Positions 5,913 to 47,166 of a stretch of 64,000 nucleotides of DNA are shown here, in pieces; the stretch's first letter is position 1, and every line of letters starts with the position of its first letter. The DNA is taken from positions 1 to 64,000 of the forward strand of contig NZ_JACHMP010000001.1 in the NCBI RefSeq assembly GCF_014204985.1. The letters are read 5' to 3'. Origin of the DNA: Streptosporangium becharense. Lineage in GTDB: Bacteria; Actinomycetota; Actinomycetes; Streptosporangiales; Streptosporangiaceae. The translations under genes and the position numbers were made by a program. The notes under the pieces were generated by a model. The model was not told the origin of the DNA and did not search any database. It saw only the letters and a program-made list of their open reading frames with translations.

Positions 5913-7015
5913 GCCGCGTGCGCCTCACGGCGGCGGGCCTGCCGGCGCATCAGCCACAGGAAGAACGGGCCGCCGCACAGCGCGGTCAGCACGCCCACCG
6001 GGATCTCCTGCGGGGCGGTGACCGTGCGGGCGGCGACGTCGGCGCAGACGAGGAAGGCCGCCCCGCCGAGCGCCGCGGCCGGTATCAACCGGCGGTGGTC
6101 GCCGCCGACGACGAGGCGCGCGGCGTGCGGCGTCATCAGCCCGACGAAGCCGATGGGCCCGGTGGCGGCGACGAGCACCCCGGTCACCACCGAGAGCAGG
6201 ACGAACATCCGGACGCGGAAGCCGCGCACGTCCAGGCCCATGGTGGCGGCGGCCTCCTCGCCGGCGAGCAGCAGGTTGAGCGACCGGCCCTGCAGGAACA
6301 ACGCGACGGTGGCGGCCGTCAGCACGGCCGCCGGCAGCCACAGCGTCTCCCAGTGCACCCCGCCGAGCCCGCCGAGCGTCCAGGAGAGCACCTCTCGCGA
6401 CTCGTTCTCCCGGTCCGCCGTCAGCAGCAGGAAACTGGTCAGCGCCGAGAACACCGAGGCGACGGCGACCCCGGCCAGCACCAGGTGGACGGAGGTGATC
6501 CGGCCGCCGACCCGGGCCGTCACGTACACCAGTGACAGCGCCGCCAGCGCACCGGCGAAGGCCGCCAGCGACAGGGACGGCCGGGTGCCGAACAGCGCGA
6601 AGCCGGAGACGATCGTCAGAACGGCGCCGAAGGAGGCACCGGAGGAGATGCCGAGCAGGTAGGGGTCGGCCAGCGGGTTGCGGACCAGCGCCTGCATCGC
6701 CGTGCCGACGACCGCCAGCCCGGCGCCGGTGACCGCGCCGAGCAGCACGCGCGGGGCCCGCACGTCGAAGACGATCGTCTCGCGTGTCCGCGTCCAGGTG
6801 ACCTCGGACGGCCACGGCAGGCCGGCGCGGTGGCCGAGGACGCCCCACACCTCGCCGGCGGGCACCCGCACCGAACCGAGGCCGAGCCCCACCGTCATCG
6901 AGACCAGCAGGGCGGCCGTCAGCAGGACCAGGACGAGCGCGTACGGCGGGCGGGACCGCCGGGCGGCTCCCCCGGCGAGGCGGGGAAGGCGGCGCCGGAG
7001 CGCCGGTCCGGTCAC
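5909..7015 (-). CDS. btuC: Vitamin B12-type ABC transporter permease (FecCD/BtuC family)
   Basis: From a GTG at 7015 that overlaps the binding-protein stop (GTGA), the frame gives about 368 residues with roughly ten transmembrane segments. The family motifs are present: RAPRVLLGAVTGAGLAVVG, ALVRNPLADPYLLGISSG and GFVGLMTPHAARLVVGGDHR. The frame stays open far upstream through the binding-protein gene, but that extension is antisense-free coding of another protein and is not part of this gene. It pairs with the ATPase and lipoprotein of the same operon to form the inner-membrane channel for corrinoid uptake. Confidence 0.9.
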   Translation of the reverse strand: MTGPALRRRLPRLAGGAARRSRPPYALVLVLLTAALLVSMTVGLGLGSVRVPAGEVWGVLGHRAGLPWPSEVTWTRTRETIVFDVRAPRVLLGAVTGAGLAVVGTAMQALVRNPLADPYLLGISSGASFGAVLTIVSGFALFGTRPSLSLAAFAGALAALSLVYVTARVGGRITSVHLVLAGVAVASVFSALTSFLLLTADRENESREVLSWTLGGLGGVHWETLWLPAAVLTAATVALFLQGRSLNLLLAGEEAAATMGLDVRGFRVRMFVLLSVVTGVLVAATGPIGFVGLMTPHAARLVVGGDHRRLIPAAALGGAAFLVCADVAARTVTAPQEIPVGVLTALCGGPFFLWLMRRQARRREAHAA

Positions 7016-8070
7016 CGGAACCGCTCGGGATGCAGTTGCCCGGCCAGTTCCTCCACGGCCTGCGGGGGCCGCACGCCGACGACGGTCGCGGTGAGCGGCA
7101 GCACCGCGAACCTGCGGTTCTTCACGGCGGGGACGTCGGCGAGGGCCGGCTGCGACTGCAGGAACCTCTTCTTCTCGGCCACGTTCCCCGGGTCGCCGTA
7201 GTCGTAGATGACGATGACCTCGGGCCTGCGGTCGACGACCTGCTCCCAGGAGACGTCGCCGAACACCTTGTCGAGGTCGCCGAAGACGTTGCTGCCGCCG
7301 GCCAGGCGGATGATCTCCTGGCCGATGCCGGTGCCCCCGGCGGTGAACGCCGTCTTGTCTCCGCTGTCGTAGACGAACACCGGCACCGGCCGGACGCCGC
7401 CGAGCTTGCCGGTGACCGCGTCGACACGCCGCTGCATGTCCTGCACGAGTCGTTCGGCCCGGTCGGCGACCCCGAAGATCTTCCCGACGGTGCGGATCTC
7501 CTCGTGCACGTGGTCCATGGTCAGCCGGCCGGCCGCGCAGTACTCCAGGTTGAGGTGGGTGTCGATGCCCGCGTCGGCGAACGCCTTGCGGGAGCGGCCC
7601 TCCTTCTCCGCGAACGCACTGCCGTAGCCGCCGTAGACCAGGTCGGGCCCGGCCTCCAGCACGGTCTCGAAGGAGGGCTCCTTGGCCGACAGCTCCGGGA
7701 TGCGCTCGTACGCCTGCCGGTACTGCGCCAGCACCTCGGAGTCGGGGAAGGCCGTGCCGGCCATCGAGGACTCCAGGCCCAGGGCCAGCATCAGCTCGGC
7801 CGGGTGCTGGTGGATGGTCACCACCCGTGACGGGGGCCTCCGGTAGGTGGTGCGCACCCCGCAGTTGTCCACCGTCACCGGGAAACCGGCCGCGGCGGCG
7901 CCCGGCCGGGCCCCTCCCGGGCCGCCCGCCCGGGTGCCACCCGGGTCGCCTGCGCCGCCGCAGGCGGTCAGGAGCAGGGCGGCGACGGCCGACACGATGC
8001 CGCCGACGACGGCCGGACGGCGGGGACGCCGCCCGCCGGAACCGCCGGGAGATGGGGGAATGCCGAACAC
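7012..8070 (-). CDS. btuF: Corrinoid-binding ABC transporter lipoprotein
   Basis: The protein starts with a GTG at 8070 behind GGAGG and has a lipoprotein signal peptide ending in the lipobox LTAC (cysteine near residue 37). The mature part is a class III (BtuF/FepB-like) periplasmic-binding fold: a first lobe with RVVTIHQHPAELMLALGLE, a long connecting helix, and a second lobe. It would sit on the outer face of the membrane and hand the ligand to the downstream permease. The B12-riboswitch leader immediately upstream makes cobalamin or cobinamide the likely ligand; an iron chelate cannot be excluded. Confidence 0.9.
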   Translation of the reverse strand: MFGIPPSPGGSGGRRPRRPAVVGGIVSAVAALLLTACGGAGDPGGTRAGGPGGARPGAAAAGFPVTVDNCGVRTTYRRPPSRVVTIHQHPAELMLALGLESSMAGTAFPDSEVLAQYRQAYERIPELSAKEPSFETVLEAGPDLVYGGYGSAFAEKEGRSRKAFADAGIDTHLNLEYCAAGRLTMDHVHEEIRTVGKIFGVADRAERLVQDMQRRVDAVTGKLGGVRPVPVFVYDSGDKTAFTAGGTGIGQEIIRLAGGSNVFGDLDKVFGDVSWEQVVDRRPEVIVIYDYGDPGNVAEKKRFLQSQPALADVPAVKNRRFAVLPLTATVVGVRPPQAVEELAGQLHPERFR

Positions 8071-38532: not shown

Positions 38533-39360
38533 CTACGGAGTGTCGCGCCGCGTACGTCTCCGGTGCCGTACGAGCAGGACCGCCACGATCACGATGACGA
38601 CCGCGCTCAGCAGCGCGGCGTCCGGTACGGCGGCACCCAGCCGGCGGATCCACCGCTCCGCGGCGTACTCCTGGTCCACGCTGAGCAGGCCGGGCAGGGC
38701 CGAGGTGCCGTCGAAGACCAGGAAGACGGTGCCGATGGCGATGAAGAAGGCACCCGACAGCAGGGAGTTGGTGTGCAGGCGCAGCGGCCCGAGCGAGAAC
38801 GGCCGGCCGCGCAGCCAGCGCCGGCGCCCGAGGTCGAAACGGTCCCACAGCAGGGCGAGGCCGAACAGCGGCACCACCATGCCGAAGGCGTAGACGGCCA
38901 GCAGGACGCCGCCGTACACCGGGGCTCCACCCAGCGCCGCGACCGTCAGGATGCCGCCGAGGATCGGCCCGGCGCAGAATCCCGCCAGACCGTACACCGC
39001 GCCGAGCGCCACGATCGACAGCGCGGAGTCGGGCCGGAGCCGTCCCGCCGGCCGGGCGGGCCGGACGGCGAAGCCCAGCCCGAGGATCTGCGCCACGCCG
39101 AGCGCGATGATCGACCATCCACCCACCGCGACCACCGTGTCCCGGTGGCCGTACAGCAGGGCACCGACCGCCGAGCTCGCCACGCCGAGCGGGACAAGGG
39201 TGAGTGCGAGCCCGCCGTACAGCAGCGCGGTGCGGCCGAACAGGCGTTGCGGGCTGGTGAAGGAGTAGGCGAAGAACGACGGCAGCAACAAGGCGCTGCA
39301 CGGGCTGAACAGCGCGAACACGCCGCCCAGGAAGGCCGTCAGGTAGCCGAGATCGCTCAT
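38533..39360 (-). CDS. ccdA: CcdA/DsbD-like thiol-disulfide transmembrane protein
   Basis: The 275-residue protein has six or more transmembrane segments and two membrane cysteines in conserved places (LFSPCSALLLPSF near residue 20 and GFCAGPILGG near residue 125). It should move reducing power from cytoplasmic thioredoxin to the outer face. Its ATG overlaps the stop of the DsbA-like gene (ATGA), so the pair is co-translated. A C-terminal basic tail follows the last helix. Confidence 0.9.
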   Translation of the reverse strand: MSDLGYLTAFLGGVFALFSPCSALLLPSFFAYSFTSPQRLFGRTALLYGGLALTLVPLGVASSAVGALLYGHRDTVVAVGGWSIIALGVAQILGLGFAVRPARPAGRLRPDSALSIVALGAVYGLAGFCAGPILGGILTVAALGGAPVYGGVLLAVYAFGMVVPLFGLALLWDRFDLGRRRWLRGRPFSLGPLRLHTNSLLSGAFFIAIGTVFLVFDGTSALPGLLSVDQEYAAERWIRRLGAAVPDAALLSAVVIVIVAVLLVRHRRRTRRDTP

Positions 39361-40103
39361 GAGGTTCCCGTGCCGGCGGTCTTGGCGGCCTCCTGCTCGA
39401 TCGTCTCGACGAAGGTCTCCAGCGGCTGGGCGCCCAGGATGGGCCGGCCGTTGACGAGGAACGCCGGCGTGCTCGGCACACCGATCTGCGTGCCCTCCGC
39501 CTGGTCGGCGACGACGGCGTCGCGGGCGGCTTCGGAGTTCAGGTCCCGGCGGAACCGCGCCAGGTCGGGAACGTCCGCCTCGCGCGCCATCGCGACCAGC
39601 TTGTCGTCGGCGAAGGCGCCGCTGTTGCGTTTGCGATCCACCGAGTAGACCTCGCGGTGGAACTGCCGGAACCGCCCCTGCAGACCGGCCGCGTAGGCGG
39701 CGCGGGCGGCGGCCTCGGACTCCTTGCCGAAGATGGGGAAGTTGCGCCACTCGATGCGCAGGGTCCCCGCGTCCACGTATCGCTTGATCAGTTCGGGTTC
39801 GATGTCCCGGGTGAACTGCCCGCAGAAGGGGCACTGGTAGTCGGCGTACTCGATGAGGACGACCGGAGCGTCGGGGCGTCCGGCCGCGAAGGGGTCGCCG
39901 TCCTTGCGCCTGGCCAGCTGGGAGAGCGCCTCCTCCTGGGGCGAGGGGGTCCTCGCCGGTCCCGACGCGGCGGGTGAGGCGGCCGGAGCGGGCGGGGAGG
40001 CGGCCGGTTTCCTGTTGCTGGTCGACAGGACGGCCAGCGCGAGCCCGCAGGCCACGACGACCATGATCATTACGATGAGCCGGCGGTCGGCGGATGAGGA
40101 CAT
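39357..40103 (-). CDS. Membrane-anchored DsbA-like thioredoxin protein
   Basis: One N-terminal membrane anchor and an Ala/Pro-rich linker lead to a DsbA-like thioredoxin fold with the active site CPFC (YADYQCPFCGQFTRDIEPEL) and the cis-Pro loop GVPSTPAFLVNG. It is a 248-residue extracytoplasmic oxidoreductase or isomerase, and the next gene, CcdA-like, probably recycles it. I use the ATG at 40103 with GGAGA upstream. Confidence 0.92.
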   Translation of the reverse strand: MSSSADRRLIVMIMVVVACGLALAVLSTSNRKPAASPPAPAASPAASGPARTPSPQEEALSQLARRKDGDPFAAGRPDAPVVLIEYADYQCPFCGQFTRDIEPELIKRYVDAGTLRIEWRNFPIFGKESEAAARAAYAAGLQGRFRQFHREVYSVDRKRNSGAFADDKLVAMAREADVPDLARFRRDLNSEAARDAVVADQAEGTQIGVPSTPAFLVNGRPILGAQPLETFVETIEQEAAKTAGTGTS

Positions 40104-40239
40104 GGATGTCTCCGGAAGGTGAACGGGCGCGGCGACGGACGGCCGCGCGAGAGAACGGCGGAACACTCGCACCCCGGCGGGGGCGAGGAATCACAGGAGG
40201 GGACGCCGCAGGTCGGCCGGCGGCGCGTCCGCGCCGTTT

Positions 40240-41933: not shown

Positions 41934-42071
41934 ATGTCCGACAAGCTCATCCCCACCCTGGCCGCCCCGGTCGAGCGCACGATCACCGGAGCCGCCTCAC
42001 TCGACGCCGCGGGCGTCGGCCAGTCGATCACTGACTTCCGTTTCCCGTTCGCCGATGAGGGCGACGAGTAG
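41934..42071 (+). CDS. Cyanobactin-like RiPP precursor peptide (45 residues)
   Basis: The leader begins MSDK and continues LIPTLAAPVERTITG, closely echoing the conserved cyanobactin precursor leader (a Leu/Ile-x-Pro start, then APV-x-R and a Thr-rich word). The C-terminus FADEGDE resembles the FAGDDAE tail that marks the macrocyclase recognition site in heterocycle-free cyanobactins. Immediately before it is ITDFRFP, ending in Pro, the residue PatG-type macrocyclases prefer at the cut site. GVGQS ahead of this word could be the N-terminal protease site (compare GVEAS or GLEAS). So one core is predicted: ITDFRFP, or a longer form starting at GVGQS. There is no Cys, and only one Ser and one Thr lie in or beside the core. 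Confidence 0.8.
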   Translation: MSDKLIPTLAAPVERTITGAASLDAAGVGQSITDFRFPFADEGDE

Positions 42072-42082
42072 TCGGTGACCGG

Positions 42083-42116
42083 GTGAGTGCCGGCGCCGGT
42101 CGGCGCCGGCACTCAC
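42083..42116 (+). terminator. Hairpin between precursor and protease (attenuator)
   Basis: GTGAGTGCCGGCGCC (42083-42097) pairs perfectly with GGCGCCGGCACTCAC (42102-42116) around a 4-base loop, 11 bases after the precursor stop. Such leaky terminators are common in RiPP operons and yield more precursor than enzyme transcript. Confidence 0.75.
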
Positions 42117-42165
42117 CTCTCGACGTCAGGGAACACCGGTATCCGGCACACGGGAGTTCGTTGCG

Positions 42166-44148
42166 ATGGGCGAGGTGTCAGCGGTCACGGGGCTGGCTCG
42201 GCTGTGGGACCTGACCACCGGCGATGATCACATCGGGGTGGCCGTCGTGGACGGCCCGGTCGACGACCGGCACCCCGTCTTCGCCGAGGGCAAGCTGACA
42301 CAGCCGAGCCACGCCTGGCCGGGGGATGCGGATTCGGGAACCTCGGCCGCTCACGGCACGGCGGTGGCCGGGGTGCTGTTCGGGCGGCACGACGGCCCGG
42401 TTCCCGGCGTGGCGCCCGCCTGCCGGGCGGTCAGCGTGCCGGTGTTCGCCCGGGGGCGGCGCACCTCGCAGTTGGAGCTGGCCCGCGCCATCGAGCTGGC
42501 GGCCGACTCCGGCGTCCATGTGATCAACGTCAGCGGCGGGCAGCTCGCCGGCGCCGAGGAGGCGGAGGACGTGCTGACCCGCGCCATCGACAGATGCCGC
42601 GAACGGAACGTGCTGGTGGTGGCCGCGGTCGGCAACGACGGCTGTTTCTGCGACCACGTGCCGGCCTCACTGCCCGGCGTGCTGGCGGTCGGCGCCTGCG
42701 ACGAGGCCGGGCGCCCGCTGCCGACGAGCAACTTCGGGCCCGGCAGCCGCCGCCAGGGCCTGCTCGCCCCAGGACACGACATCCTCGTCGCGGTGCCCGG
42801 CGGCGGCACCACCCGGATGAGCGGCACCAGCCTGGCCGCGCCGATCGTGGCCGGCGTGGCCGCGCTGCTGCTGAGCCTGCAACGGCGACGCGGTGACGCT
42901 CCCGACCCGGGCGCCGTCGGCAGACTCCTGCTGGAGTCCGCCACCCCCTGCGACACGGCCCGGCTCGGGGACGGGACCTGCGCGCGCCACCTGGCCGGAA
43001 CACTCGACATCACGAAAGCGGTGAATGCTGTGACCACCACCTCCGCGCCCATCTCCTCCCCGGATCCGGCTCCTGCCGTCGATGCCGGCGAGCGGGCCGT
43101 CACCCTCTCCTGCGGTACCACGCTCCAGTCCGCCACGGACGGGCAGGGCGGTTGCGACTGCGCCGCGGACGACGTCTTCGTCCCCGCCGCGGTCACCGCG
43201 CCGACGCCGGCGGCGCGGCCCTGGGCCCCGGCCGCGACGGCGCCCGCTCCGCAGACCGGTGTGGTGACCTCGGCCGAACAGGGGAAACCGGCGGCGCGGC
43301 GGCTGGTGTACGCACTGGGAACGCTGGGCTATGACTTCGGCACCGAGGCCCGGCGTGACACGTTCAAACAGCTCATGCCACCGGTCGAGGCCGACGGAGT
43401 GAGCCTGCCCGCCAACCCCTACGATCCCCGCCAGATGGTCGACTACCTGCGGGAGAACCCGTCCGAGGCGCGTCCGCTGATCTGGACGCTCAACCTGGAC
43501 CTGACCCCGATCTACGCCGTCGAACCGGTCGGCGGCTACGCACCCGGGGTGTACGAGCGGCTGACCGAGTTCCTCGCCCGCCAGCTCAAGACCGAGGACG
43601 ACGTCGACTTCGTCGACCGAGTCTCGGTGCCCGGCGCCCTGCCCGGACGCACCGTGAAGCTGTTCTCCGGCCAGGTGGTGCCGGTGATCGAGATCAACCT
43701 CACCCGCGGCCTGTACGGCTGGTCGGTGGCCGGTCTCGCCCACGCCGTCACCCAGGAGTGCCAGGTTCCCCAGCACAACCAGCGCGGCAACGACAACGAC
43801 CGTGCCCGGCTGACCGACGCGGTGTCCGACTTCCTCACGCGCATCTACTACGACCTGCGCAACTTCGGCGCCACCTCCCGCGACCGGGCGCTCAACTTCG
43901 CCGCCACCAACGCCGTCCAGGCCCGCCAGACCCTGGCCGAAGCGCTGGGACGCGGCATGGCGCTGCAGAACATCGAGGTGGAGAAGAGTCCCTACGGCCG
44001 GCCCGACAGTGACTGCTGGGACGTCAAGCTGCGCTTCTTCGACCCCGACAACAGCAAGCGGGCCAAGCGTGTCTACCGCTTCACCGTCGACGTCAAAGAC
44101 GTCATGCCGGTCACCCTCGGACCGGTCCGCAGCTGGCCCGAAGCCTGA
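42166..44148 (+). CDS. PatA/PatG-family subtilisin-like maturation protease
   Basis: Residues 10-285 are an S8 subtilase with an intact triad: Asp29 (GVAVVDGPVDDRHP), His63 (AAHGTAVAG) and Ser222 (MSGTSLAAPIVAG), plus oxyanion Asn157. After a Pro/Ala-rich linker (about 290-370) comes the domain shared by cyanobactin PatA and PatG (about 375-655: LVYALGTLGYDFGTEARRD, LIWTLNLDLTPIYAVEP, DSDCWDVKLRFF, YRFTVDVKDVMPVTLGPVRS). It should cleave the 45-residue precursor, either removing the leader or cutting before the C-terminal tail with cyclisation. GGGAG precedes the ATG. It is the second gene of the RiPP operon. Confidence 0.92.
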   Translation: MGEVSAVTGLARLWDLTTGDDHIGVAVVDGPVDDRHPVFAEGKLTQPSHAWPGDADSGTSAAHGTAVAGVLFGRHDGPVPGVAPACRAVSVPVFARGRRTSQLELARAIELAADSGVHVINVSGGQLAGAEEAEDVLTRAIDRCRERNVLVVAAVGNDGCFCDHVPASLPGVLAVGACDEAGRPLPTSNFGPGSRRQGLLAPGHDILVAVPGGGTTRMSGTSLAAPIVAGVAALLLSLQRRRGDAPDPGAVGRLLLESATPCDTARLGDGTCARHLAGTLDITKAVNAVTTTSAPISSPDPAPAVDAGERAVTLSCGTTLQSATDGQGGCDCAADDVFVPAAVTAPTPAARPWAPAATAPAPQTGVVTSAEQGKPAARRLVYALGTLGYDFGTEARRDTFKQLMPPVEADGVSLPANPYDPRQMVDYLRENPSEARPLIWTLNLDLTPIYAVEPVGGYAPGVYERLTEFLARQLKTEDDVDFVDRVSVPGALPGRTVKLFSGQVVPVIEINLTRGLYGWSVAGLAHAVTQECQVPQHNQRGNDNDRARLTDAVSDFLTRIYYDLRNFGATSRDRALNFAATNAVQARQTLAEALGRGMALQNIEVEKSPYGRPDSDCWDVKLRFFDPDNSKRAKRVYRFTVDVKDVMPVTLGPVRSWPEA

Positions 44149-44174
44149 TCCACCGGCCGGGAAAGAGACTGATC

Positions 44175-44372
44175 ATGCCCATGTTCCCCCCGCAGACGGC
44201 CCCGGTGCGCCGGCCCGATCCGCTGCCGCCGTACACCACCATCGGCCTTCATCCACCCACCGCCGAGCACCTGGACCGGGTGCGCGTCCACCTCACCTAC
44301 AGCGCCAACGTCAACGATCCCGCCGCCTACACGCTGCCGGGCTACGAGCAGGCGAAACTCTCCGCCCGGTAA
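44175..44372 (+). CDS. Small 65-residue protein, possibly PatB-like
   Basis: A conserved-looking small protein with words PPQTAPVRRPDPLPPYTTIG, VRVHLTYSANVNDPAAYTLP and GYEQAKLS. From memory it resembles the PatB/AcyB/McaB family of cyanobactin clusters, whose members start with an APV-x-RPD word and carry an AN-x-NDP word; I cannot verify this here. The role of PatB proteins is not established. It has a GGAAAGAG ribosome site, starts 26 bases after the protease stop, and is clearly in the same operon. A second precursor is less likely because no PatE-like leader or acidic tail is present. Confidence 0.7.
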   Translation: MPMFPPQTAPVRRPDPLPPYTTIGLHPPTAEHLDRVRVHLTYSANVNDPAAYTLPGYEQAKLSAR

Positions 44373-44465
44373 GACGCGCCATCCGGATCAGGAGGGGCGG
44401 GGCCGATCCCCGGCTCCCGGCCCCGCTCTTCCCCACCCGACCGCCGCACCAGTACGAGGCCGCCG

Positions 44466-46268
44466 ATGAACCTTCCGCCGTCCCCGCCCTCCTGCCCGAC
44501 GGGCGGCCCCGTTCCGGACGGGAACCGCACCGGCAAAAGCGATTCCGGCCGATCCATCCCGCCGTGTCCGCGCTTTCCCGCCGAAGCCGTCGCCGGCGTC
44601 ACCGAGCTGTGGCAGTACACCCACGGCCATCCGGACATCACGATCGGCTTCTACGACGGCCCCCCGGACACCGCGCACCCCTGCCTGGAGGGGGCCGACC
44701 TGCGGGTCCTCCCTCCCTGGTGGCTTCCCCCCGCCGCGGACGACCCGGGCCTGGTCGAGCACGGCACCTTCACCGCCAGCGTGCTGTTCGGCCAGCCCGG
44801 CAGCGTCCTGCCCGGCCTGGCCCCGCGCTGCCGCGGCATATCCCTGGCGGACACCTCCGACGGGCACACCTCGCCCGATCCGCTGCACGCCGCCCGCGCC
44901 GTCGACGAGCTTCTCGAGGCCGGAGCCGACGTCATCCAGTTCACCGTCCCGTACCACACCGCCTCCGGCGACGCCGACGAGCTGCTCAAACGCGCCGTCA
45001 ACCGCGCACTCGACGCGGGCGTACTGATCGTCGCCCCGGCGGGCAACGACCACGGGCACTGCGGCATCGCCCCGGCCGTCCTCCCGGGCGTGCTGGCCGT
45101 CGGCGCGCACCGCGCCGACGGCACCATGTTCCGCTTCAGCAACTTCGGGCCGGCCTATCGCGGGCACGGCATCACCGCCCTGGGCGAGGCGGTCCTGGGT
45201 GCCACACCGGGTGGCGGCGTCCAGGCCCGTAAGGGCACCTGCGCGGCCGTCGCCCTGGTCACCGGCGTCGCCGCCCTCCTGCTGAGCCTGCAGCGCCGGC
45301 TCGGCCAAGCGGCCGACCCGCTCGCCGTCCGTGACGCGCTGCTCGTCACCGCCCGCCCATGCACCCCCGGGCAATCCGGCGGCCAGGTCGAACGCTGCCT
45401 GGACGGCTACCTCGATCTGCCCGCCGCGACCCGCCTCGTCCACGCCGCCGCGCCGGCCCGGCCATGCGGCGCGCTTCCCCCCACCGTCGTCCCGGCGGAC
45501 CGGCCGGTGAGGCGGTCACCCCGGGCGGCGACGGTCACCACGATCGCCGAACGACCTCACCTCGCCCAGGCGGAGATCGCCCAGCCGTCTTCCCCCGCCT
45601 TCCTGGGCAAGGACATGGCCGGCCGGTGGGCCGCACACGCGCGACTCCAGCAGCGCTTCCCCCAGTTCGGCGTGGTCGCCACCGACGCCGGTGGATCGGT
45701 CGTCGGACGCGGCTGGGGGGTGCCGTTTGCGCTGTCCGCACCCGGACGCGGGCAGCTGCCCGACGGAGGCTGGGACGAGATTCTCACCTGGGCCTTCGCC
45801 GACCTCCAGGACGGCAGCCCGCCCGACACCCTGGGACTGCTCGCCATCGTGGTCCGGCACGACCAGCAGCGCGCCGGCCTGGCGGGCGCGCTGCTGGCGG
45901 CGCTGAAGAACGCCGCCCAGGTCACCGGCCTGCGCCAGGTGGTCGCCCCGGTACGCCCCACCCGCAAGCACCGCGAGCCCGCCACCCCCATGGCCGAGTA
46001 CGCCCGGCGCACCCGGGCCGACGGCCTGCCCGCCGACCCGTGGCTGCGCACCCATGTCAGGGCCGGCGGCCGTATCGACTCGATCGCCTCGGCCTCCATG
46101 GTGGTCGCCGGCTCCCTGGCGCAGTGGCGCCGATGGACCCGGCTGCCCTTCGACACGGACGGCCCCGTCACGGTGCCCGGTGCGCTGGTGCCCGTGCACT
46201 GCGCACTCGCCCACGACCATGCCGTCTACGTCGAGCCCAACGTCTGGGTGCGCCACCTACTGCCCTGA
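44466..46268 (+). CDS. Cys-type subtilisin homologue fused to a GNAT domain
   Basis: Residues 40-330 are an S8 subtilase related to the first protease (shared VLPGVLAVGA, GVAALLLSLQRR). It keeps Asp64 (GFYDGPPDTAHP), His99 (EHGTFTASVLFG) and Asn194, but the nucleophile motif is KGTCAAVALVTG: Cys259 replaces Ser, and Ala263 replaces the Pro of GTSxAAP. The codon is TGC at 45240-45242. From about residue 378 a GNAT-like acyltransferase domain follows (GLLAIVVRHDQQRAGLAGAL carries the CoA-binding loop). No PatG C-terminal domain is present. Likely roles are peptide ligation/cyclisation or N-acylation of the processed peptide; a catalytically weak pseudoprotease is the alternative. Confidence 0.85.
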   Translation: MNLPPSPPSCPTGGPVPDGNRTGKSDSGRSIPPCPRFPAEAVAGVTELWQYTHGHPDITIGFYDGPPDTAHPCLEGADLRVLPPWWLPPAADDPGLVEHGTFTASVLFGQPGSVLPGLAPRCRGISLADTSDGHTSPDPLHAARAVDELLEAGADVIQFTVPYHTASGDADELLKRAVNRALDAGVLIVAPAGNDHGHCGIAPAVLPGVLAVGAHRADGTMFRFSNFGPAYRGHGITALGEAVLGATPGGGVQARKGTCAAVALVTGVAALLLSLQRRLGQAADPLAVRDALLVTARPCTPGQSGGQVERCLDGYLDLPAATRLVHAAAPARPCGALPPTVVPADRPVRRSPRAATVTTIAERPHLAQAEIAQPSSPAFLGKDMAGRWAAHARLQQRFPQFGVVATDAGGSVVGRGWGVPFALSAPGRGQLPDGGWDEILTWAFADLQDGSPPDTLGLLAIVVRHDQQRAGLAGALLAALKNAAQVTGLRQVVAPVRPTRKHREPATPMAEYARRTRADGLPADPWLRTHVRAGGRIDSIASASMVVAGSLAQWRRWTRLPFDTDGPVTVPGALVPVHCALAHDHAVYVEPNVWVRHLLP

Positions 46269-46377
46269 TCCACGTGCGGACGGGCACCCCGTCCAAGGCT
46301 CGGCGGCGGCGCTCGACCGCTCCCACCGGCGGTGTGCCTGCGACCCATTCCCAATCGTGATACTTCCGGAAGATCTG

Positions 46378-47166
46378 ATGGCTTTTGTCCTGATCGCCTC
46401 ATCCGGCATAGTCCTGGGGATGGATCGGCAACTGATCAGCCACATCGCCCACCGGGACCACCCCATCGCCGCCCCGATCGATGACGCACAACTGGAACGA
46501 CTGCTCAGGCGGGCACGACTCCGGCCCGAGGCGCGCATCCTCGACCTCGGGTGCGGAGGGGCGGAGTGGACCATGCGGGCCCTGGAGCTCTACCCGGAGG
46601 CGACCGCGGACGGGGTGGACGTCTCCGAAGCCGCTCTCACCTCCGCCGCCGGAGAAGCCGCCCGCCGCGGGCTGACCGACCGGATGCGACTGCACCACCT
46701 CGCCGCTGCGGACTTCACCGCCGGCGAACCGTACGACCTCGTGCTGTGCGTGGGCGCCACCCACGCCTTCGGCGGGCTGACCGAAACCCTGCACGCCGTA
46801 CGACGCCACCTGCACCCGGCGGGGCAGGCTCTGGTCGGAGAGGGCTTCTGGGAGAAGCCTCCCCCGCCGCAGACCCTGGCCCGGCTCGGCGCGGAGCCGG
46901 AGGAGTACGCCGACCTCGCGGGAACGGTGAACCGGGCGGAGGACGCCGGCTACGCCACCGTCTACGCCTACACCAGCACGCGTGCCGACTGGGACGAGTA
47001 CGAATGGTCCTGGACCGGGTCCCTCACCCGCTGGGCGCTCGACCATCCCGGTCCCGACGGTGACGCCGCCCTGGCCGCCGCCCGCGACCACCGCGACATG
47101 TGGCTCAACGGCTACCGGGACATCCTGGGCTTCGTGACCCTCCTGCTCCGTCTCGGCAGCCGGTAG
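46378..47166 (+). CDS. SAM-dependent methyltransferase of the RiPP locus
   Basis: A class I methyltransferase with motif I ILDLGCGGAEWTMRALEL, acidic motif II ADGVDVSEAAL and post-I word YDLVLCVGATHAFGGL. The ATG at 46378 has GGAAG five bases upstream and adds a hydrophobic MAFVLIASSGIVLG; the family-like start is the ATG at 46420, which lacks a usable ribosome site. The gene is co-directional with the protease-GNAT gene after a 109-base gap. It may methylate the peptide (linear cyanobactins are known to be O- and N-methylated), but it could also be an unrelated neighbour. Confidence 0.85.
   Translation: MAFVLIASSGIVLGMDRQLISHIAHRDHPIAAPIDDAQLERLLRRARLRPEARILDLGCGGAEWTMRALELYPEATADGVDVSEAALTSAAGEAARRGLTDRMRLHHLAAADFTAGEPYDLVLCVGATHAFGGLTETLHAVRRHLHPAGQALVGEGFWEKPPPPQTLARLGAEPEEYADLAGTVNRAEDAGYATVYAYTSTRADWDEYEWSWTGSLTRWALDHPGPDGDAALAAARDHRDMWLNGYRDILGFVTLLLRLGSR

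Follow-up and report, generated by a model that had tools for sequence, protein, structure and literature searches.

What does a cyanobactin-type pathway make when the protease in the position of its macrocyclase carries cysteine in place of the catalytic serine? The question is raised by a locus of the actinomycete Streptosporangium becharense, located at positions 41934-46268 of the 64,000-nucleotide stretch analysed here (the window; contig NZ_JACHMP010000001.1, positions 1 to 64,000). Its genes mark it as a heterocyclase-free cyanobactin-type locus. Its features and the neighbouring gene are as follows.

41934-42071, plus strand: precursor peptide gene, 45 residues (open reading frame, family profile).
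42083-42116, plus strand: hairpin between the precursor and the proteases, with perfect 15-base arms (RNA folding).
42166-44148, plus strand: putative A-type (PatA-like) protease with a Ser nucleophile and PatG_D and PatG_C domains (TIGR03895, PF18065, PF18047, trees).
44175-44372, plus strand: PatB/AcyB/McaB-like small protein, 65 residues (TIGR04220, below cut-off).
44466-46268, plus strand: putative G-type (macrocyclase-position) protease, with a GNAT-like C-terminal domain replacing the PatG C-terminal domain (alignments, trees).
45240-45254, plus strand: codons of the active site from C259 (TGC) through A263 (GCC), which encode the subtiligase-like pair (aligned with PatG 4h6x and PatA).
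45531-46268, plus strand: GNAT-like domain of the second protease (phmmer, seven-sequence profile).
46420-47166, plus strand: class I methyltransferase, a neighbour whose membership in the locus is not supported (Pfam/NCBIfam domain match).

A sequence-only reading had described this region as a minimal cyanobactin-type pathway outside cyanobacteria, without a heterocyclase in the locus. Our analysis supports this view and confirms the precursor, the hairpin, the PatA/PatG-family subtilisin with its PatG-type C-terminal domain, the PatB-like protein and the GNAT-fused second subtilisin. Neither of the two outcomes that it had named as counting against it was observed: 42166-44148 does match the PatA/PatG family, and homologous loci do not consistently lack a small precursor gene. 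The two subtilisin-like proteases were both recognized there without assignment to A-type and G-type roles, which our trees provide. The main oddity, the Cys nucleophile together with the loss of a Pro in the macrocyclase-position enzyme, was missed.

The protein encoded at 44466-46268 keeps the catalytic residues D64, H99 and N194. When it is aligned to the PatG macrocyclase (4h6x) and PatA, Cys259 replaces the catalytic Ser and Ala263, four residues on, replaces Pro. The engineered ligase subtiligase (S221C/P225A) has the same residues at the same two positions, so the window protein shows both the change of the nucleophile from Ser to Cys and that of Pro225 to a small residue.

To place this pair, we tabulated the active sites of 148 subtilisin-domain matches in 100 loci, 7 of 107 loci having been left out beforehand as duplicates. 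Eight matches have no aligned nucleophile and 140 were counted. Because L074 and L112 share part of a contig, the Ser count includes one or more proteins twice. The nucleophile is Ser in 131 and Cys in 9. At the second position the Ser enzymes mostly have Pro (122), with Ala in eight and Val in one, whereas the Cys enzymes have Ala (6) or Ser (3). All nine Cys enzymes are second proteases from loci within the window's family, and all nine retain His and Asn together with Asp (8) or Glu (1). Among other actinobacterial subtilases from 24 loci, which are mostly best matches below cut-off and no fair sample of family S8 (L016 being the same protein as L153), the nucleophile is Ser in every case and Cys in none.

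With the active-site columns removed, the nine Cys enzymes form one clade (bootstrap/SH-aLRT 95/83), and eight of them group at 100/99. The L044 enzyme, which has Ser and Ala, adjoins this clade with weak support (82/58), and the L039 enzyme, with Ser and Pro, stands outside that grouping. This weakly suggests that Pro was lost first and that Ser then changed to Cys, with a single origin; the L044 enzyme may represent the evolutionary step preceding Cys.

The assignment of the two proteases follows from their placement in the trees. The first, 42166-44148, matches the PatA/PatG family model TIGR03895 at 740 bits (cut-off 421) in the profile search that the sequence-only reading had proposed. 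It has the catalytic D/H/N/S residues and carries PatG_D and PatG_C (PF18065, PF18047), as an A-type protease with a C-terminal domain does in a cyanobactin pathway. The A-type (leader) role is the most likely one for it, and the trees reject a G-type role. The second, 44466-46268, matches the catalytic part of TIGR03895 at 227 bits, which is under the cut-off. In a tree of 132 rows, from which partial and identical rows were left out, the second proteases cluster with G-type enzymes (SH-aLRT 99), and the same grouping is recovered at SH-aLRT 99 after the insertion and active-site columns are left out. On this phylogenetic placement, 44466-46268 is most likely the G-type (macrocyclase) protease.

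The alignment also reveals what this enzyme has not kept. Asp and His are 69-98 residues apart in those G-type enzymes of cyanobacteria and proteobacteria whose alignment is unbroken, and the gap is longer in five further G-type enzymes whose alignment is split in two. In contrast, the spacing is 34 in the actinobacterial second proteases and 41 in L066. The window enzyme lacks about 30 residues found between Asp and His in PatG (4aks, 4akt, 4h6x), which we take to be the macrocyclisation insertion and which agrees with the gap in the PatG alignment. Because the spacing is short across the actinobacterial second proteases, the aligned sequences place the loss of the insertion, or its never having been gained, prior to Cys. 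The window enzyme also lacks the PatG C-terminal domain. In L038 and L044 (PF18065) and in L047 and L066 (alignment) the second protease still has this domain, and each of the nine Cys-type genomes has a single PF18065 match, in the window's case on the first protease. A structure model of the second protease predicts an intact fold over the protease part. The ratio of nonsynonymous to synonymous substitution rates (dN/dS) of the second proteases is 0.42-0.56 in four diverged pairs and 0.73 in the near-identical pair L036/L037.

The precursor gives the substrate of the proposed reaction. The open reading frame at 41934-42071 encodes MSDKLIPTLAAPVERTITGAASLDAAGVGQSITDFRFPFADEGDE, which is laid out as a leader, a GVGQS site resembling recognition sequence II (RSII), a core ITDFRFP (nucleotides 42027-42047) and a tail FADEGDE resembling recognition sequence III (RSIII). 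Its match to the anacyclamide/piricyclamide precursor model TIGR04446 is weak (E 0.0014, 18.9 bits, below the cut-off of 35). A family profile, built on 13 precursors of ten actinobacterial loci, was run against 30,745 small open reading frames of 102 loci. This profile finds cyanobacterial precursors with a PFAGDDAE tail (top E 2.8e-10) and two actinobacterial precursors outside it, in L043 (2.7e-18) and L038 (5.2e-7). A survey of gene neighbourhoods in actinobacteria, also proposed by the earlier reading, shows a homologous precursor in 13 of 14 two-protease loci, always upstream of the first protease and lacking only in L039; the two-protease loci L172-L174 have no precursor at E<=1 by the profile. 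The cores are hypervariable, and the L043 precursor has three cores in tandem, each flanked by VEQS and FAG. Leader, RSII, hypervariable core and RSIII are thus all present as in a cyanobactin pathway, with GVGQS and FADE as site letters where the canonical ones are G(L/V)E(A/P)S and AYDG (PMC10885120).

When the Cys-type precursors are cut at these sites, Pro is the last residue of each of the 12 cores, with L036 and L037 carrying an identical peptide. The cores of the Ser-type loci close with Ile in L044, Thr in L047, Met in L038 and Pro in the three precursors of L066. PatGmac is described as requiring Pro or thiazoline as the last core residue (PMC5708355), and heterocycle-free cyanobactins as having 7-20 residues and a conserved Pro (PMC4663559). 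The seven-residue ITDFRFP fits this pattern.

From the gene order, the phylogenetic grouping, the conserved substitutions and the precursor grammar, we infer the following chemical steps. The A-type protease (42166-44148) would remove the leader after GVGQS and free the Ile amine. The G-type enzyme (44466-46268) would bind the FADEGDE tail, and Cys259, activated by His99 and Asp64 with Asn194 in the oxyanion hole, would attack the Pro-Phe bond to form a peptidyl thioester. The core's own amine would then resolve the thioester and close the ring. With Cys as the attacking residue and the crowding Pro replaced by Ala or Ser, the acyl-enzyme would be biased toward aminolysis, and these changes would take the place of the PatG insertion. 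The insertion presumably excludes water, and the Cys clade can be read as meeting PatG's water problem by chemistry rather than shielding. In subtiligase, the thioester acyl-enzyme is described as more open to attack by amines, and P225A as relieving the crowding caused by the sulphur; at position 225, Ser and other small polar residues were better in one engineered background, and in other work Ala alone, or Ala and Gly, were tolerated (PMC7921005, PMC9126251). We consider it probable that a naturally evolved thiol-subtilisin transpeptidase makes a head-to-tail, heterocycle-free peptide here, most likely cyclo(ITDFRFP), with a calculated [M+H]+ of 877.4567. We also lean, by a little, toward the wider view that the actinobacterial macrocyclase clade is a natural subtiligase, which changed Ser to Cys and Pro to Ala or Ser and works without the PatG insertion.

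Several observations weigh against this proposal. The canonical marks of a macrocyclase, namely Ser, the insertion and the PatG C-terminal domain, are all absent from 44466-46268. The grouping of the second proteases with the first proteases is disfavoured but not rejected (p-AU 0.061), and the model fold of the second protease is equally close to PagA and PatG. Ala occupies the second position, alongside Ser, in 21 of the 24 other subtilases described above, and therefore Ala at position 225 alone is uninformative. Moreover, the activity of thiol-subtilisin is drastically lowered, and subtiligase is used with ester donors (PMC7921005, PMC9126251).

The GNAT-like domain bears on the alternatives. 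The C-terminal 245 residues of 44466-46268 have Pfam GNAT matches that are all below threshold. The nearest solved relative by sequence is the GNAT domain of CurA (2ree), found by phmmer at E 8.6e-6 and by a seven-sequence profile at E 1.9e-9 over 87 positions. The relationship to CurA-type GNAT domains is thus present in sequence, in a shared stretch of about 87 residues, and the likeness is one of sequence only; the window domain differs in being fused to a protease, and the GNAT part of the structure model is of poor quality. The domain is found in 4 of 14 loci (the window, L035, L039 and L043). A tblastn search finds none in L034, L036, L037 and L142 and a 52-residue match at E 0.066 in L141, so that five of the eight Cys-type members with an uncut gene lack it (in L040 the contig ends within the second gene). 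A role as an essential part is rejected by its absence from these loci. The unusual tailoring by GNAT suggested earlier is retained here in a reduced form: we propose an accessory acyl-coenzyme A (CoA)-dependent tailoring domain, kept in some members.

It is unlikely, in our estimate, that the G-type enzyme simply hydrolyses the tail off and that the GNAT domain N-acylates a linear product, as in end-capped linear cyanobactins; the calculated [M+H]+ would be 895.4672 for the linear peptide and 937.4778 for its acetylated form. The missing insertion and the GNAT fusion in the window, L035, L039 and L043 speak for such a product, microviridin systems include a GNAT N-acetyltransferase, and linear cyanobactins with capped ends are already described (PMC4663559). 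However, the five Cys-type loci L034, L036, L037, L141 and L142 show no GNAT (best E 0.066), a Cys acyl-enzyme prefers amines over water, and all Cys-type cores end in Pro, the residue that PatGmac requires, which points to cyclisation.

The second subtilisin might instead be a pseudoprotease that only presents the substrate, the first protease making both cuts. The drastic loss of activity on changing Ser to Cys in subtilisin, the loss of the PatG C-terminal domain and the replacement of Asp by Glu in one member would suit this idea. Against it stand a nucleophile that is Cys in all nine enzymes, the retention of His, Asn and Asp/Glu in 9/9, a dN/dS below 1 and the predicted intact fold of the protease part, and we regard it as improbable. 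Less probable still, and in our view very improbable, is that the peptidyl thioester goes to a different acceptor, such as an amine or a partner bound to CoA, and not to the N-terminus of the peptide itself. The CurA domain nearest in sequence to the GNAT-like domain is described as a decarboxylase/S-acetyltransferase, and on two rhizobial plasmids a standalone homologue follows a nonribosomal peptide synthetase/polyketide synthase (NRPS/PKS) gene at a distance of two or three genes, which would fit such a transfer; yet the domain is absent in five of the eight uncut Cys-type members, and the scanned neighbour genes differ among loci.

These standalone GNAT-like homologues are plasmid-borne (L169 8043-8777, L170 5911-6570, L171 6046-6705) and their hosts are Streptomyces clavuligerus and rhizobia; the NRPS/PKS neighbours concern the two rhizobial plasmids. 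When plasmids were searched with the second protease, 26 records matched, each over less than 80% of the query. Among the 20 plasmid matches listed, 19 are to the GNAT part and one to the protease part.

The methyltransferase of the earlier reading is present, and its inclusion as a conserved part of the locus did not hold. Across 14 stretches representing 13 distinct relative loci, none of its matches falls below E 0.015. Homologues 69-73% identical occur in the genus-mates G336, G180, G071 and G338, all of them without a PatG_C match, and a fragment occurs in a fifth, G158. In G337, a genus-mate having the locus, there is only a distant homologue (E 5.8e-11), and a single weak match (E 1.3e-7) was found close to L148, which has an A-type protease only. 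With no conserved match in two-protease loci and homologues in genus-mates that have no PatG_C match, a dedicated role is rejected. Homology with six genus-mates picks up again rightward at about 47205, which puts the methyltransferase gene on the strain-specific side.

The four proteins at 42166-47166 show no match to YcaO or to a PatF-type prenyltransferase in Pfam and NCBIfam, the methyltransferase being represented by the best 25 of 36 NCBIfam rows. The sole YcaO match of the genome is 2.6 Mb from the locus. The PatB-like protein matches TIGR04220 at E 2.8e-12, although its 46.1 bits fall below the cut-off of 55, and a PatB match is found in 14/14 two-protease actinobacterial loci, the window itself counted.

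The hairpin has perfect arms of 15 bases each at 42083-42097 and 42102-42116, with a fold z of -4.6, and 0 of 200 shuffles are equally stable. Among eight folded gaps between precursor and protease (the window and seven relatives), z is -3.2 or lower in five, the window included; the gaps of L035, L040 and L142 give -0.8 to -1.6. There is no T-run terminator at the hairpin, a promoter and terminator scan found none, and Rfam gave no match at gathering score. We guess that the hairpin acts as an mRNA stabiliser or attenuator. To the left of the locus, minus-strand genes at 38533-40172 of the window encode DsbA-like and DsbD-like proteins.

The relatives show how widely the locus is spread. The first protease was used to scan the genome contigs of GTDB. 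Of 128 relatives the best 80 were kept; they represent 76 distinct loci and are mostly cyanobacterial, with a few from other phyla and nine of actinobacterial origin (Nonomuraea, Microtetraspora, Actinoallomurus, Actinomadura, Gandjariella and Streptomyces). The TIGR03895 cut-off is passed by 6 of 200 genomes of the window's family. A PatG_C match occurs in 23 of 345 genomes of its order and in 13 of 394 genomes of a class-wide draw, some of them shared with the order set. Two proteases, or their remains, together with a PatB match occur in 14 actinobacterial loci (the window, L034-L040, L043, L044, L047, L066, L141 and L142), and L172-L174, from small-genome actinobacteria, also have two proteases and PatB. 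L039 (9262-12432) looks degenerate, since its first protease is cut down to the C-terminal part and no precursor was found; its Ser-type, GNAT-fused second protease is open.

The neighbour genes scanned vary from locus to locus. L036 has a DUF6895 protein as a neighbour. In L142, a SagB-type dehydrogenase gene (6063-7340) overlaps the Cys-type protease gene by 4 bases; the core of this locus, QHWRIWRP, has no Cys, Ser or Thr, and no heterocyclase was found among the three neighbours scanned.

Two other kinds of loci came to light. One short subtilisin with the PatG_C domain in a separate frame occurs in each of the actinobacterial loci L149-L152, L154 and L175 (Ser with Ala or Val) and likewise L153, L156 and L178 (Ser with Pro), an arrangement that, by sequence, is a different use of the PatG_C domain. 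The one-protease loci L086, L087, L089, L094, L095, L097 and L099 (cyanobacteria) and L148, L176, L177 and L179 (actinobacteria) have a single PatA/PatG-type match and no insertion-bearing G-type protease within the stretch examined. Their precursors have a cyanobactin-like leader, a GVEAS-like site and a hydrophobic tail with no FAGD-type end. They perhaps form a class in which leader removal alone occurs.

Among known systems, the anacyclamide and piricyclamide clusters (acy, pir) are alike in having A-type and G-type proteases, a PatB-like protein and no heterocyclase, together with a related leader, an FA-type tail and a core ending in Pro. The window locus differs in being actinobacterial, in its G-type enzyme with Cys and with neither the insertion nor the PatG C-terminal domain, in the added GNAT domain and in having no prenyltransferase match in the locus. 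Unlike the engineered subtiligase, the window enzyme is natural and has a dedicated precursor, and three of the nine Cys enzymes carry Ser and not Ala as the second residue. An actinomycete, Saccharopolyspora sp. NFXS83, has already been reported to carry cyanobactin-like genes, in passages that give no active-site or precursor analysis (PMC10145562), and the first protease is covered by TIGR03895. We did not find a Cys-type G protease or a natural subtiligase described in the open-access papers searched; subscription papers lay mostly outside the search, which is therefore no proof of novelty.

If the proposal is true, evolution has independently reached the engineers' double change of subtilisin, in a family whose job is ligation. 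The passage from hydrolase to ligase would become directly testable, including the order of changes along the series L039 (Ser/Pro), L044 (Ser/Ala) and the window (Cys/Ala), and so would the question of whether thioester chemistry substitutes for the structural insertion of PatG. For the synthesis of ring peptides, the enzyme would offer a natural macrocyclase of compact size, and the proposal would predict, with their exact masses, cyanobactin-type products of actinomycetes.

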